A DNA stretch of 64,000 nucleotides from Deltaproteobacteria bacterium (lineage in GTDB: Bacteria > Bdellovibrionota > JACOXK01), in the NCBI GenBank assembly GCA_016186995.1, contig JACPKQ010000007.1, forward strand, positions 1-64,000, written 5' to 3'. A program made the translations under genes and the position numbers. Positions 3,937 to 45,075 of this stretch are shown here, one piece after another. The notes beneath the pieces are model-generated. The model was not told where the DNA came from. It did not search any database and saw only the letters and a list, made by a program, of their open reading frames with translations. How positions within the stretch are numbered: position 1 is the stretch's first letter; the number at the start of each line of letters is the position of its first letter.

Positions 3937-6237
3937 GTGCAGAAGAATGATTCTTTAAATCGTGAGTTTTGTGCAGAGCAAAAACGCCGTAAGAGAGAGA
4001 AAAAGCTTATTTTTTTCATCTCTTTAGGGTTTGCTTTTCTTACGATTTTAGAGGTTTCACTCAGTGAGCTTTCCGAAAAACTCTCTGTGACAGCCTCTTT
4101 ATTCTTTTTTATTGTTGTTAACATTAACATTATTTTACTGGGGCTTCTTATATTTTTAGTTTTTCGAAATTTTATTAAATTACTTCTTGAAAGAAAGGAT
4201 CGTGTTTTTGGCTCTAAACTTAAATCTAAGCTTATTGTTGTTTTCCTTGGTTTTGCACTTATTCCAACCATTCTTCTTTTTACTATTTCTGCTTTCTATA
4301 TTCACAACAGTTTTGGTAAATGGTTTAACTCCCATATCCAAACATCTCTTAAAAGTGGTGCAGAAATATCCGAAACTTATTATGAAAATCTTAAAAAGTT
4401 AGGACGAGATTTTGGAGAAACTGTTTCTCATTTTATTGCTCGAGAAAAATTGTTTAGAGATTCTAAAAAAGATTTTTTGAAGAAAACCCTCAAAGATTTT
4501 CTAGAAAACTATCATCTTGCTTCTTTAGAGTTATATCAAAAAGATTCAGGGCAATATTCTGAATTTGTACACCCCAAATATACAGATTATGGATTCCCAA
4601 GACCTCCTGAGGTTTTTTTAAGTAATGCTTTAGAAGGATATGAAAACCAATTTATTCAAAGTATCGGAAAAGGGAATTTAGTAAGATGTATTTTTCCTAT
4701 TTATCAAGATACTAAACAAGAAAAGCCTTCAGGTGCTCTTGTACTTAGTTTTTTTGTACCTTTAAGTTTAGTTCTTAAGATAGAAAAAATTCAAAACACT
4801 TATCAAGATTATGCAGCTACCTCACCTTTTGCTTCCTCCATTCAATCGAGTTATTTTCTCCTTCTTATTCTTATAACCCTTCTTATTATGTTTACTGCTA
4901 CCTGGTTTGGTTTTTATTTGGCCCGTCAACTTATTATTCCTCTTGAAAGTTTAGCCGAGGCAACAAAAGAAATTGTAAAAGGGAATTTAGATATTCAGTT
5001 AGATCAGGTTGGATCGAAGATGGCTACAGACGAGTTTAATATTTTAGCAACGTCTTTTAATAAAATGACGCAAGATTTGAGAAAAAACAGGGGAGAAATA
5101 GACAAAGCACATAAAACTCTTAAAACAGCAAATCGTGAACTTTATCAAAGACATAAATATGTTGAAGCCATTTTAGAAAATGTAGCAGCCGGTATTATTT
5201 CATTAGATGCTTTTGGTATTGTGACCACGATGAATAAATCAGCTCAAAATATATTTAATGTTGATACAAAAAATATGATTGGAAAACATTATAGAGATAT
5301 TGTTGGGGATGAGTATATTAAACAAGTCGATGAATTTATCTGCGATATTATTGAGAATGAAAAAATTAATTTTCATAAAAAGGAGTTTTCTTTTACTAGG
5401 GGGGGTAAAGAATTCTCACTTTTAGCAAGTGTTGCAACTGTTCGAGATGAAAATGGAGATTATATTGGTATGGTTGTTGTTTTAGAAGACTTAACTGAAA
5501 TGATAGATATTCAAAAAGCAGCCGCCTGGAGAGATGTTGCTAAAAGAATTGCGCATGAGATTAAAAATCCGCTTACTCCGATTAAGCTTTCAGCACAACG
5601 TTTAAAGAAAAAACTAACTCAACAAGAAGATGCCGATTTAATTCATATGTGTATTGATACCATTATTCATGAAGTTGATGGGCTCAAAGACTTAGTGAAT
5701 GAATTTTCTGATTTTGCAAGATTGCCGCGACCTCGTTTTTCTAAAATATCTCTTAAAGAGATTGTTGTAGAAGTTGTTTCTCTTTACCAATCTGCTCACG
5801 AAAAAATTAAATTTATTTTTAAGGAAATGGAAACAACCCCGCTTGTTTATGCAGATAGAGAACAAATACGGAGAGTGTTTATTAATTTGGTTGAGAATGC
5901 ACTTGATGCAGTGGGGAAACAAGGAGAAATTAGTTTTTATCTGAAATATAATAGTATTTTAGATATTGTTATTATTGAAGTTTGCGACAATGGAAAAGGT
6001 TTTGACGATGCTTTAAAATCAAAAATTTTTGAACCTTATTTTACAACAAAAACGAAAGGAAGTGGTTTAGGGCTTGCTATTGTTCAGAGAATTTTGAAAG
6101 AACACGGCGGCATTATCCGAGTTTATAAGAATGATCCACAAGGATCAAAATTTATTATAGAACTACCAGTTCAAAATAAAACATATTTTCTTGCGCAAGA
6201 TAAGACTAGTAACACGGGATATTTTACAGAAACATGA
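3937..6237 (+). CDS. NtrY-like membrane sensor histidine kinase
   Basis: Sensor kinase of 766 residues. Hydrophobic helices at about 23-40, 52-77 and 98-121 are followed by an extracytoplasmic region (about 125-300). A further membrane helix lies at 304-327, then HAMP (328-382), PAS (405-520), the H-box with His540 in RIAHEIKNPLTP, and an ATPase domain with the N-box (N650, N654), DNGKGF (684-689) and GSGLGLA (709-715). Three N-terminal helices plus sensor, HAMP and PAS is the NtrY layout. The start is GTG 3937 with a weak ribosome site. Its stop overlaps the response-regulator start by four bases, so the two form a pair. The signal is unknown; position after lpxC suggests envelope or nitrogen status (inference). 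Confidence 0.9.
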   Translation: MQKNDSLNREFCAEQKRRKREKKLIFFISLGFAFLTILEVSLSELSEKLSVTASLFFFIVVNINIILLGLLIFLVFRNFIKLLLERKDRVFGSKLKSKLIVVFLGFALIPTILLFTISAFYIHNSFGKWFNSHIQTSLKSGAEISETYYENLKKLGRDFGETVSHFIAREKLFRDSKKDFLKKTLKDFLENYHLASLELYQKDSGQYSEFVHPKYTDYGFPRPPEVFLSNALEGYENQFIQSIGKGNLVRCIFPIYQDTKQEKPSGALVLSFFVPLSLVLKIEKIQNTYQDYAATSPFASSIQSSYFLLLILITLLIMFTATWFGFYLARQLIIPLESLAEATKEIVKGNLDIQLDQVGSKMATDEFNILATSFNKMTQDLRKNRGEIDKAHKTLKTANRELYQRHKYVEAILENVAAGIISLDAFGIVTTMNKSAQNIFNVDTKNMIGKHYRDIVGDEYIKQVDEFICDIIENEKINFHKKEFSFTRGGKEFSLLASVATVRDENGDYIGMVVVLEDLTEMIDIQKAAAWRDVAKRIAHEIKNPLTPIKLSAQRLKKKLTQQEDADLIHMCIDTIIHEVDGLKDLVNEFSDFARLPRPRFSKISLKEIVVEVVSLYQSAHEKIKFIFKEMETTPLVYADREQIRRVFINLVENALDAVGKQGEISFYLKYNSILDIVIIEVCDNGKGFDDALKSKIFEPYFTTKTKGSGLGLAIVQRILKEHGGIIRVYKNDPQGSKFIIELPVQNKTYFLAQDKTSNTGYFTET

Positions 6238-7577
6238 GACTCAGAAACATTTTAATAATTGATGATGAATTAAGTATTCGCGAAACCCTTTCTGGGGTTT
6301 TAAAAGATGAAAACTACAAAGTATGGACAGCCCATAACGAGGTTGAAACTCTAAGAGTTTTATCTCAAGAAGATATCCATGTTGTTTTTCTAGATATTCT
6401 CATGAAACCTGTTGATGGTATAGAACTTCTTAAAAGAATTAAAGAAAGATATTCAAAAGTGATCGTGATTATGATGAGTGGGCACGGCACTATTGAAACA
6501 GCGGTGCAGGCTACAAAACTCGGTGCCTATCATTTTATTGAAAAACCTCTGTCTCTTGAAAAAATTCTTGTTATTTTAGAAAATGCATTTCAGAGTAAAG
6601 AATTAGAAGAAGAGAACGAAAGATTAAGGTTAGAAAAATACCAAAATGTTGATCTTATTGGACGTTCTCAAGCTATTTCCAAAATTAGAGAGTTTATTAA
6701 GATGGTGGCCCCCACAAATAGTTGGGTTCTTATTTCTGGGGAAAATGGAACAGGAAAAGAAATGGTAGCACGGAATCTTCATCATTTAAGTTTGAGATTT
6801 CACCGTGAATTTGTCGCAGTGAATTGTGCTGCTATACCAGAAAATCTCATTGAATCAGAGTTATTTGGTTATGAAAAAGGTGCTTTTACGGGTGCTTATT
6901 CTCAAAAGAAAGGAAAGTTTGATTTAGCAGATGGTGGAACTCTTTTTTTAGATGAAATTGGGGACATGAGTCTTCATACTCAATCTAAAGTTTTAAGAAT
7001 TTTGCAAGAACAAAAATTTGAACGCGTGGGTGGAACAAAAACAATTGAGGTTGATGTGCGTGTGATAGCTGCTACGAATAAAGATCTTAAAAAAGAGATT
7101 GGAGAGGGGCGTTTTCGAGAAGATCTTTATTATAGACTTAATGTTATCCCTTTTCATATTCCTCCTTTAAGAGAGCGCAAAGAAGATATTAAACCATTAG
7201 CTCACTTTTTCTTAAGTGAAATAGCGTTAGAAAATAATAAGGGAAATATAAAAATCACTGACAGAGCTTATGAGAGGTTGTATCAGTATGATTGGCCAGG
7301 TAATATTAGGGAATTAAGAAATCTTATCGAAAGGTTTGCTATCATGTCTCAAACAGAAACTATTGATGTAGAGGGTGTTGTATTACCAACAGAAAGATTT
7401 CAAAGTGGAAATTTTTCTAGCGATTTCAGAAGTGCTCGTGAAAATTTTGAGAAAAAATTTATTGAGGAAAAATTAAAAGAGTTTAATGGTAATATTTCAA
7501 AGACAGCACAATCCATTGGTGTAGAAAGAAGCCATTTACATCGAAAAATTAAACAGTACGAGATAAAAGTAGACTAA
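6234..7577 (+). CDS. NtrX-like sigma-54-dependent response regulator
   Basis: Enhancer-binding activator of 447 residues with three domains. The receiver (1-120) has Asp10-Asp11, phospho-acceptor Asp54 and Lys104. The AAA+ domain has Walker A GENGTGKE (169-176), the sigma-54 contact GAFTGA (216-221) and Walker B GGTLFLDE (234-241). The C-terminal Fis-type helix-turn-helix is around 418-445 (GNISKTAQSIGVERSHLHRK). It follows the kinase with a four-base overlap and precedes proS by three bases. It is the obvious candidate to activate the -24/-12 promoter at 2799-2814, and the palindromes at 2719 and 3876 are candidate sites. Confidence 0.92.
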   Translation: MRLRNILIIDDELSIRETLSGVLKDENYKVWTAHNEVETLRVLSQEDIHVVFLDILMKPVDGIELLKRIKERYSKVIVIMMSGHGTIETAVQATKLGAYHFIEKPLSLEKILVILENAFQSKELEEENERLRLEKYQNVDLIGRSQAISKIREFIKMVAPTNSWVLISGENGTGKEMVARNLHHLSLRFHREFVAVNCAAIPENLIESELFGYEKGAFTGAYSQKKGKFDLADGGTLFLDEIGDMSLHTQSKVLRILQEQKFERVGGTKTIEVDVRVIAATNKDLKKEIGEGRFREDLYYRLNVIPFHIPPLRERKEDIKPLAHFFLSEIALENNKGNIKITDRAYERLYQYDWPGNIRELRNLIERFAIMSQTETIDVEGVVLPTERFQSGNFSSDFRSARENFEKKFIEEKLKEFNGNISKTAQSIGVERSHLHRKIKQYEIKVD

Positions 7578-41640: not shown

Positions 41641-42349
41641 ATTTTTACATTTGTTTTTTGCTTTGATTGTTGGTTTGTTGCTCTCAGCTTGTAGTTTAAC
41701 CGAAGAAGATCGCGAGAACGTTGATCTTATGAGAGAAGAAGTTGATAAGGTTATGCAGGAAAGAGCAGAATATAAAGCAGAAGTGGATGAGCTTAAAAAT
41801 CAGATTCTTAATCTTGAATCAGAGCTTGAAAATAAATCTAAATCTGAGGAAGAAACACGAGAAAAATTAGAAGTAGCATTGCAATCTTTAGAAGAAAGAA
41901 TTTTAGAGCTTGAAAAAAATGTTCGAGATATTTCTTTGGGAAAAGCCCTTAAGGACGAGAAAAAAGTAACTTCTTCAAGTTTATATTATAAGGGTAAGAA
42001 GGAGTATTCAGAAAAAAACTTTCGGCAAGCATTACTTACTTTTAAATTATTAGTTGAAAAGTATCCTCAAAGTAGTCTTCTTGATGATGCACATTATTGG
42101 ATTGGCGAAACTTATTTCGAGCTTAAAGATTATGAAAAGGCGATTGTTGAATTTGATCTTATCAGAAAGAATTTTCCAAAAGGTACTGCTATTGCAGGGG
42201 CTCTTTATAAAGAAGCTCTTTCTTTTAAAGAATTGGGAAAAAAAGAAGAAGCGCAAATTCTTTTAAAAACTGTGGTTGAACAATTTCCTGATTCTCCAAC
42301 GGCAACCAAAGCAAAAAAAGAACTTTCAGTAGAGCTGCTGGTCAGGTGA
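41627..42349 (+). CDS. CpoB/YbgF-like lipoprotein with coiled coil and TPR repeats
   Basis: Periplasmic cell-division coordinator family linked to Tol-Pal. I chose ATG 41627, which gives a signal peptide with lipobox LSAC (Cys22) and 240 residues; the frame is open further upstream but without a signal. Residues 25-105 form a coiled coil rich in Glu/Lys, and TPR-like repeats follow (YYKGKKEYSEKNFRQAL, AHYWIGETYFELKDYEKAI, ALYKEALSFKELGKKEEA). The usual CpoB is soluble, so a lipid anchor is a variation. Confidence 0.85.
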   Translation: MQRNKFLHLFFALIVGLLLSACSLTEEDRENVDLMREEVDKVMQERAEYKAEVDELKNQILNLESELENKSKSEEETREKLEVALQSLEERILELEKNVRDISLGKALKDEKKVTSSSLYYKGKKEYSEKNFRQALLTFKLLVEKYPQSSLLDDAHYWIGETYFELKDYEKAIVEFDLIRKNFPKGTAIAGALYKEALSFKELGKKEEAQILLKTVVEQFPDSPTATKAKKELSVELLVR

Positions 42350-42380: not shown

Positions 42381-44090
42381 ATGAAATTCCGTTATTTCAT
42401 CATGCTTTTTTTTGTTCTTTCTACGCTTCAATGTACAAAAAAGAGCTTTCCTTGGAAATTAGTTACTGCCCAAGAAAAAAGTTTACCCAAATTCAATATT
42501 TATTTTACTGGAAGTATTCAGGGTGAACTTGAACCTTGTGGGTGAATATCTAATCCACTTGGCGGGCTCGCTAGGAAAGGACAATTTTTTGAGGGTATCC
42601 GCAATCAAAGAGATTTTGTCTTCTTTGATAGTGGGGATCTTCTTTCTAAATCTGCTCAAGTTACAGGGTTTTTGAAAGATCAGTACAAACTTCAAGCTGA
42701 GGTATTAGTACAAGGAATAAGTTCGCTTCCTCTCACAGTAATGACTATTGGGGAAAAAGATTTTACTTTTGGAAAAGATTTTTTAATTGAACAAGTGAAG
42801 AAATTCCATCTTCCTGTTGTGAGTAGCAATGTTTATGAAAAGGGCACAAGAAAACTTCTTTTTGAAGATCACAAGATTGTGACTGTACGGGGAAAAAGAT
42901 TGGGCATTTTTGCTTTAACAGAACCTTTTCACTTTAAATTTCTTGCAACTCAAGAAGTCGATGTAACAGATCCCATTCCCATAGCTCAAAAAATGATTAA
43001 AAAACTTGTGAATGACAAGGTGGATTATATTATTGTTCTTTCAGATTTAGGAATTTTGAGAGAAACCAAATTAGCAAGTCAAGTTGAAGGTATTGATATT
43101 ATTATAGGGGGCCATTCAGAAGATGTTTTACAACAACCACGAATGATTAAAAATACTTTGATTGTTCAAGCAGGCTATCAAGGGCATTATATTGGGAATC
43201 TTACTGTTTTTTCAGAAGTACAGAAAAAGATTTATAATCATGAGTTAGTAGCTTTAGACACACATTTTGAACCTGGAACACCTTTTATGAGAAAACTTGT
43301 TTCTGATTTTAAAGAAAAGCTTGAAAAACACGAAACTGTTCCAGAAAAAACACAAAAGAATGGAAAAGTTCCTCAAGGTTATGAAACATCTTCTTACTGT
43401 GTTCAATGTCATACAAAGCAAACAGAGGTGTGGAAAAATTCACACCACTCAACAGCTTTTCTTTCTCTTTATGTAAGAAATCAGCATTTTAATAATGAGT
43501 GTATTTCATGCCATACAGTTGGATTCCATAAAGAGGGTGGTTTTACAGATGTACGTAAAGCAGTTGTAAAAAATGATGGAACCTTTTTGGATCTTTCTCA
43601 GTTAGCCGATACCATGATTCTTGAAACACAAGAATTGAATCAAGATTTAAAAAAACTTTTGAAAAAAAACATTGCTCAGTTTAAAGAGGCTATCAAAGCA
43701 ACTCAAGAAAAAGATAAAAAAAGCCTTTATGAGGGGCAAATTTTTGCACTTCAGAAGATTGAAGAAACAAAGTCTTTAAAGGGAAGCATGCTTTCTTTTT
43801 ATGAAAACCCTGAAATTTACAATTTTTTAAGAAAGTTGTATATAAAAGAGCTTGATAAGACAAAGCTTGCCAAGAACTACTGGGGTGTTCAGTGTGAAAA
43901 TTGCCATGGAGGAAGAGCTGGGCATCCTTTTGAAAAAGGTGACTTTTCCAAAAAAGTTGGTACAAAGGCTTGTGCGACCTGTCATAACAAGGAAAATAGC
44001 CCCCGTTTTAATTTAGAAGAGTTTCATCGTGTTCAAGGAATCCACAAGTCGGGAAAATTTGCCTTTATCTGCGCCGAAGGCAAACCTTAA
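42381..44090 (+). CDS. Candidate selenoprotein: 5'-nucleotidase-like domain fused to tetrahaem cytochrome c
   Basis: One frame of 569 residues from ATG 42381 to 44090 with an in-frame TGA at 42543-42545 (residue 55). The N-terminal part up to the TGA has a lipoprotein-like signal (Cys18) and FTGSIQGELEPCG. After the TGA come NPLGGLARK, FFDSGDLLSKS, TIGEKDF and GGHSE, a calcineurin/UshA-type fold with degenerate metal ligands. Relatives read EPCGC, so the TGA stands at a cysteine. Four CxxCH haem sites follow at about 340, 374, 505 and 531. A hairpin 8 to 36 bases after the TGA fits a bacterial SECIS. Starting after the TGA would lose the signal peptide needed for haem attachment. It may act in periplasmic electron transfer. 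Confidence 0.75.
42554..42581 (+). promoter_or_regulatory. SECIS-like hairpin after the in-frame TGA
   Basis: CTTGGCG (42558-42564) pairs with CGCTAGG (42569-42575) around the loop GGCT, and TCC (42554-42556) pairs with GGA (42579-42581) across a small internal loop. The loop begins with GG and starts 20 bases after the TGA, within the usual bacterial range. Confidence 0.6.
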
Positions 44091-45075
44091 CATTTTAGGT
44101 ATTGAGTCGTCTTGTGACGATGCAGCGGCTTCTATTTATTCATCAGGTCAAAAAAAACTTCTTTCAAATGTTGTTTCTTCACAGATTAAAGTGCACAATC
44201 CATTTGGTGGAGTTGTGCCAGAGCTTGCTTCAAGAGAACATTTTAAAAATATCCCTCTTGTGGTTGATCAAGCACTACAGGAAGCAGGCCTTGATGTGGA
44301 TGATATTGATCTTATTTCAGTGACTCATGCTCCAGGACTTATTGGAAGTCTTTTAGTGGGACTTGCTTATGCAAAGGGTTTAGCTTTTTCAAAAAATATT
44401 CCTTTTATAGGGGTTCATCATATTGAAGCGCACATGTTGGCCATTCATATCGAGAAAAAAATTCCCTTTCCTTATGTGGCGCTTGTTGTTTCTGGGGGGC
44501 ATACACATCTTTATGTGATTCATGATGTTGGAGAGTATGAACTTGTAGGAGCAACGTGTGATGACGCAGCTGGAGAAGTTTTTGATAAAGTTGGAAAAAT
44601 TTTTAATTTAGGATTTCCAGGTGGGCCTGTGATCGATCGACTTTCTAAAAAAGGAAATCCAAAAGCTATTTCCTTTCCAAGAGCTTTTATTAAAGATGAA
44701 CAGTTTCGATTTAGTTTTAGTGGGTTAAAGACAGCTGTTTCTTATTATATTCAGAAAAACCCACATTATAATATCAATGATGTTTTGGCTTCATTTCAAG
44801 AAGCAGTTGTGGACGTACTTGTTCACAAAGCACTGAAACTAGCTTTAAAAAGAAACATATCAAACGTTGTTGTATGTGGTGGGGTTGCTTGTAATTCAAG
44901 GTTGCGTGAAAGGATGGACGAGGTTCTTTCTGTTCATAAAATAAACTTTTCAGTACCGACTCCAAAGCTGTGTGCCGATAATGCTGCTATGATAGCTTAC
45001 ACGGGTTGGGAGTTGTGGAAAAAGGGGAGGCAAGATAATTTCGATTTGAATGCTTTCCCAAATAAAGTACTATAG
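44059..45075 (+). CDS. tsaD: tRNA N6-adenosine threonylcarbamoyltransferase TsaD
   Basis: Transfers the threonylcarbamoyl group to A37 of ANN-decoding tRNAs. It has NILGIESSCDDAAASIY, PFGGVVPELASREH, the metal-binding HHIEAHML, VSGGHTHLY, the GEVFDKVGK region and GGVACNSRLRE. TTG 44059 gives about 338 residues, the usual length; GTG 44029 is an alternative. Either start lies inside the end of the cytochrome gene in another frame (overlap 32 or 62 bases). Confidence 0.93.
   Translation: MPLSAPKANLNILGIESSCDDAAASIYSSGQKKLLSNVVSSQIKVHNPFGGVVPELASREHFKNIPLVVDQALQEAGLDVDDIDLISVTHAPGLIGSLLVGLAYAKGLAFSKNIPFIGVHHIEAHMLAIHIEKKIPFPYVALVVSGGHTHLYVIHDVGEYELVGATCDDAAGEVFDKVGKIFNLGFPGGPVIDRLSKKGNPKAISFPRAFIKDEQFRFSFSGLKTAVSYYIQKNPHYNINDVLASFQEAVVDVLVHKALKLALKRNISNVVVCGGVACNSRLRERMDEVLSVHKINFSVPTPKLCADNAAMIAYTGWELWKKGRQDNFDLNAFPNKVL

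Follow-up and report, generated by a model that had tools for sequence, protein, structure and literature searches.

A UshA-like tetrahaem gene with an in-frame TGA in an uncultured Bdellovibrionota lineage very probably encodes a selenoprotein of the catalogued NF041198 family

The window, the whole stretch of 64,000 nucleotides analysed here, carries in succession an OmpA/Pal-like gene, a DUF4398 gene, a TPR (YbgF/CpoB-like) gene and a gene for a UshA-like protein with four haem sites, the last of which very likely encodes a selenoprotein of the known family NF041198. The 3' end of this gene is overlapped by the tsaD ORF (44029-45075), in which no ATG precedes NILGIESSCDD. The features of the locus are the following.

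42381..44090, + strand: UshA-like tetrahaem gene, very likely for a selenoprotein, open with TGA read as selenocysteine (Sec), 569 aa, Sec55; NF041198 score of 288 bits against a cut-off of 275
42489..43253, + strand: 5'-nucleotidase/UshA N-domain with a metallophosphoesterase fold and active-site ligands partly lost (VIA-align to 3ivd_A; alignment)
42543..42545, + strand: probable Sec codon TGA in EPCGU; Cys or Sec aligned there in 35/35, TGA in relatives of the same class
42558..42575, + strand: predicted bSECIS stem-loop CUUGGCG-GGCU-CGCUAGG, within the bSECIS limits of PMC13188914; Sec and Cys members compared
43398..43412, + strand: haem site 1, CVQCH, residue 340; invariant in the 35-member alignment
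43500..43514, + strand: haem site 2, CISCH, residue 374; invariant in the same alignment
43893..43907, + strand: haem site 3, CENCH, residue 505; likewise invariant
43971..43985, + strand: haem site 4, CATCH, residue 531; likewise invariant

When TGA is translated as Sec, the only stop inside the frame 42381-44090 is the TGA at 42543-42545, which lies in the motif EPCGU (residues 51-55; context EPCG-U-ISNPLGGLAR), and homology is continuous on both sides of it. An earlier sequence-only reading had described a single frame broken only by this TGA, with coding similarity flanking it and a 7-bp stem with a GGCT loop after it; the frame was reproduced at 569 aa, the homology was found to run through the codon, and the stem is present, with its loop 19 nt from the TGA. 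Under table 11 the frame stops at the TGA and a separate 472-aa ORF starts at TTG 42672, so a plain gene caller would truncate this gene. The same arrangement speaks for a true nonsense mutation, in which case the gene would be decaying and the part after the TGA would be left over or would encode a shorter protein of its own. This explanation is nevertheless very improbable, since the 514 codons 3' of the TGA are intact, all haem motifs included, the TGA is kept in relatives at 37-44% identity, and the gene order is kept in one member (L050).

The machinery for Sec insertion, which the sequence-only reading had named as a check, was found in the window's own genome: selA is present, selB scores 342 bits against a cut-off of 242, selD scores 346 bits against a cut-off of 125, and a tRNA-Sec with the anticodon UCA matches the Rfam tRNA-Sec model with 69.1 bits against a gathering score of 47. 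ARAGORN reported no tRNA at the locus concerned (L003), where the Rfam model matches. The selD gene of this genome (L018, 1399-2457, - strand) itself carries a TGA in frame where the catalytic residue usually lies (SQSSGUGAK); this is a known form of SelD and serves as an internal control for UGA decoding. An altered code, with TGA standing for Trp or some other ordinary amino acid, has nothing specific in its favour and is the most improbable of the explanations considered for the codon, because the TGA at 42347-42349 ends the gene just upstream, the Sec machinery is complete with its UCA tRNA-Sec, and the residue aligned with the TGA is Cys, not Trp.

The search for relatives covered 368 genomes of the same phylum. 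Among the best matches, five further genomes have a TGA inside the match (one from the same family and four from the same class), all with PCGU; the TGA is at the same codon in L021, L022, L023, L024 and L035/L050, and the same-family relative has kept both the TGA and the gene order. The relatives that share the conserved TGA are 37-44% identical to the window protein, and other relatives in the phylum read PCGC. A scan of named genomes identified further Sec forms, from Candidatus Eisenbacteria, Zymogenaceae and Thermodesulfobacteriota; almost all of them carry four CXXCH motifs, and identity between the window protein and other Sec members is about 28-44%. In the alignment of 35 members, PCG(C/U), the four CXXCH motifs, H356 and H515 are invariant, and four CXXCH motifs occur in nearly all full-length members. 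The column of residue 55 thus holds Cys or Sec in 35/35, in line with the family Cys and the Cys/Sec exchange that had been anticipated for it.

The stem-loop consists of 7 bp (42558-42564 paired with 42569-42575) and the loop GGCU (42565-42568), with 19 nt from the TGA to the loop. The published bSECIS limits are a loop of 3-9 nt, a stem of 4-16 bp, a G in loop positions 1-2, a spacing of 16-37 nt and an energy of at most -7.5 kcal/mol (PMC13188914); the element in the window lies within them, at -7.5 kcal/mol for the bare stem and -11.0 with its flanks. Since folding of the 71 nt around the TGA gave no better result than shuffled sequences, the stem-loop was tested by comparison among relatives, with the limits run by one script over every member, Sec and Cys alike. 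The limits were passed by 18/20 Sec genes vs 9/62 Cys genes (Fisher p 1e-9, a value that is too optimistic because the rows share descent). In synonymous-codon shuffles of single genes, the stem gave p values of 0.005-0.195, with a marginal p of about 0.10 for the window gene. The stem-loop is therefore unexceptional alone for its coding sequence and significant once set against relatives. The stems differ between distant clades, CUUGGC... in the window gene and CUCGCCCGGCGGGCGAG in Eisenbacteria, a difference that speaks for selection acting on the structure.

These comparisons also bear on the possibility that the true codon is TGC or TGT, misread in sequencing or assembly, and the protein an ordinary Cys form, EPCGC. 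Cys does occur more often than Sec in the family at large, but the TGA recurs at the same codon in independent assemblies from the same family and class, most Cys members lack the bSECIS stem-loop and the genome has the full Sec machinery, so that an error is highly unlikely. All three rivals of the Sec reading, namely an error, a nonsense mutation and an altered code, were rejected. Judged from these genome comparisons, the in-frame TGA at 42543-42545 very probably encodes Sec: the assignment of Sec to the Cys-Gly-Sec motif, proposed before any database search, is borne out by the presence of the machinery, the Cys/Sec exchange and the bSECIS in Sec members. UGA at codon 55 would be read as Sec by SelB and the tRNA-Sec(UCA) under the guidance of the stem-loop 19 nt beyond it.

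The N-domain of the AlphaFold2 model (mean pLDDT 86.8; modelled without haem) was aligned with 3ivd_A (VIA-align Z 33.2, rmsd 2.2, 277 residues) and with SoxB 2wdc (Z 31.3, rmsd 2.5, 283 residues). The UshA dimetal site and catalytic His (NDxHG, GD, GNHE, H, GHxH) were not found as a set in the window protein, which has GSIQG, GD, GEKDF, SDLG and GGHSE. A paralogue in the same genome (L130, 844-2349, - strand) is a canonical 5'-nucleotidase with NDHHG, GNHEF, SHLG and GGHNH intact and no PCGC; at these sites the window protein reads GSIQG, GEKDF, SDLG and GGHSE, the pairing of NDHHG with GSIQG being made by eye, outside the local alignment. In the alignment of 35, the metal ligands are partly or wholly gone across the family. 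In the aligned sequences, the conserved core of the family is PCG(C/U) with the haems and not the nucleotidase site. Several relatives have a lipobox and the window protein has an N-terminal hydrophobic segment; it is probably exported and would take up four c-type haems.

Because PCG(C/U) and the haems are invariant and the nucleotidase ligands have decayed, we infer a redox role for Cys-Gly-Sec together with the haems, and this role comes close to an even chance. The former nucleotidase site, with most of its metal ligands gone, would now hold a Cys-Gly-Sec (or Cys-Gly-Cys) redox centre, which may exchange electrons with the haems. For the family as a whole, we tentatively suggest, at somewhat less than an even chance, a redox enzyme and not a phosphoesterase, with a decommissioned 5'-nucleotidase/SoxB site rebuilt round Cys-Gly-Cys/Sec and electrons passing to or from four covalent haems; such an enzyme may work outside the inner membrane, with compounds of sulfur, selenium or arsenic as substrates. 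Alternatively, the protein could have kept hydrolase activity, as a nucleotidase or a SoxB-like enzyme. Sec would then play an accessory part, by binding metal or as a covalent carrier of the kind seen in SoxB-SoxY, and the haems would work with a different partner. Such a hydrolase would agree with the clear 5'-nucleotidase/SoxB fold and with the His at the residue 222 column in 20/35 and the Asp at residue 86 in 18/35 members; it is an unlikely though appreciable alternative, given the loss of the motif I His, the motif III Asn-His and the last His of motif V against an invariant PCG(C/U). The conserved core of PCG(C/U) plus haems provides a testable idea of the family's function.

The gene order of the window is the same in the 43% identical member L050, and in L058 the UshA-like gene has a lipoprotein gene before it and tsaD and then rsmA after it (names by eye from translations); the order common to L050 and L058 indicates that the gene has been vertically kept. 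A consistent neighbourhood pointing to a substrate was not found across the phyla compared. In one case, a Sec member from Thermodesulfobacteriota (L115) is flanked by two large multihaem cytochrome genes at 539-2737 and 5572-7542, with 16 and 9 CXXCH motifs, the second of them fused to a cytochrome b561-like part. In another single case, a Sec member from Candidatus Zymogenaceae (L114, 270-8658) lies among ArsR, SaoE/SO_0444-like, thioredoxin, ArsG and ACR3 genes, neighbours that may connect it with arsenic or thiol chemistry.

The combination of Cys-Gly-Sec with a multihaem protein had been taken as undescribed, and this claim does not hold. UshA-like CxU selenoproteins of COG0737 were reported in the GOS survey in 2008 (PMC2398784), the UshA-like family was entered as CxU in 2022 (PMC9312934) and 2026 (PMC13188914), and the NCBIfam model NF041198.1, 'UshA-like (seleno)protein' (UshA_like_PCGU), covers the combination. 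The window protein matches this model at 1.3e-85, by a modest margin over the cut-off, and a genome search with it gave 280.5 with neighbouring pieces; all 35 aligned relatives match it as well. The stretches of the model matched are 16-266, 346-455 and 462-517, of which the last two fall on the haem region, and the catalogued family therefore already holds both the UshA domain and the haems. In literature outside subscription journals, no described haem-bearing UshA selenoprotein was found beyond reviews. Since the family is already catalogued, the window gene is a well-supported added member and not a new kind of protein; it is an ordinary member of a catalogued, uncharacterised family, and it adds a comparison-backed Sec member in an uncultured lineage of the same phylum as Bdellovibrionales and Oligoflexia.

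Among known systems, NF041198 proteins share with the window protein the PCGU/PCGC motif, the UshA-like N-domain and the C-terminal haem region (about 346-517); the window protein stands apart from the others by a score only a little over the cut-off and by an identity of about 28-44% to other Sec members. The COG0737 CxU selenoproteins share the UshA-like domain and CxU, and their paper (PMC2398784) makes no mention of haem or cytochrome. UshA-like (seleno)protein family 2, NF049981, entered as CxxU (PMC13188914), has a related fold, and the window protein scores 40.3 against its cut-off of 140. SoxB (TIGR04486) and the 5'-nucleotidases (UshA, CD73) share the metallophosphoesterase fold with the window protein (VIA-align Z 30-33), which scores far below their cut-offs (93.6 vs 550 and 41 vs 600 bits, respectively) and, unlike them, has lost metal ligands and gained haems and Cys-Gly-Sec.
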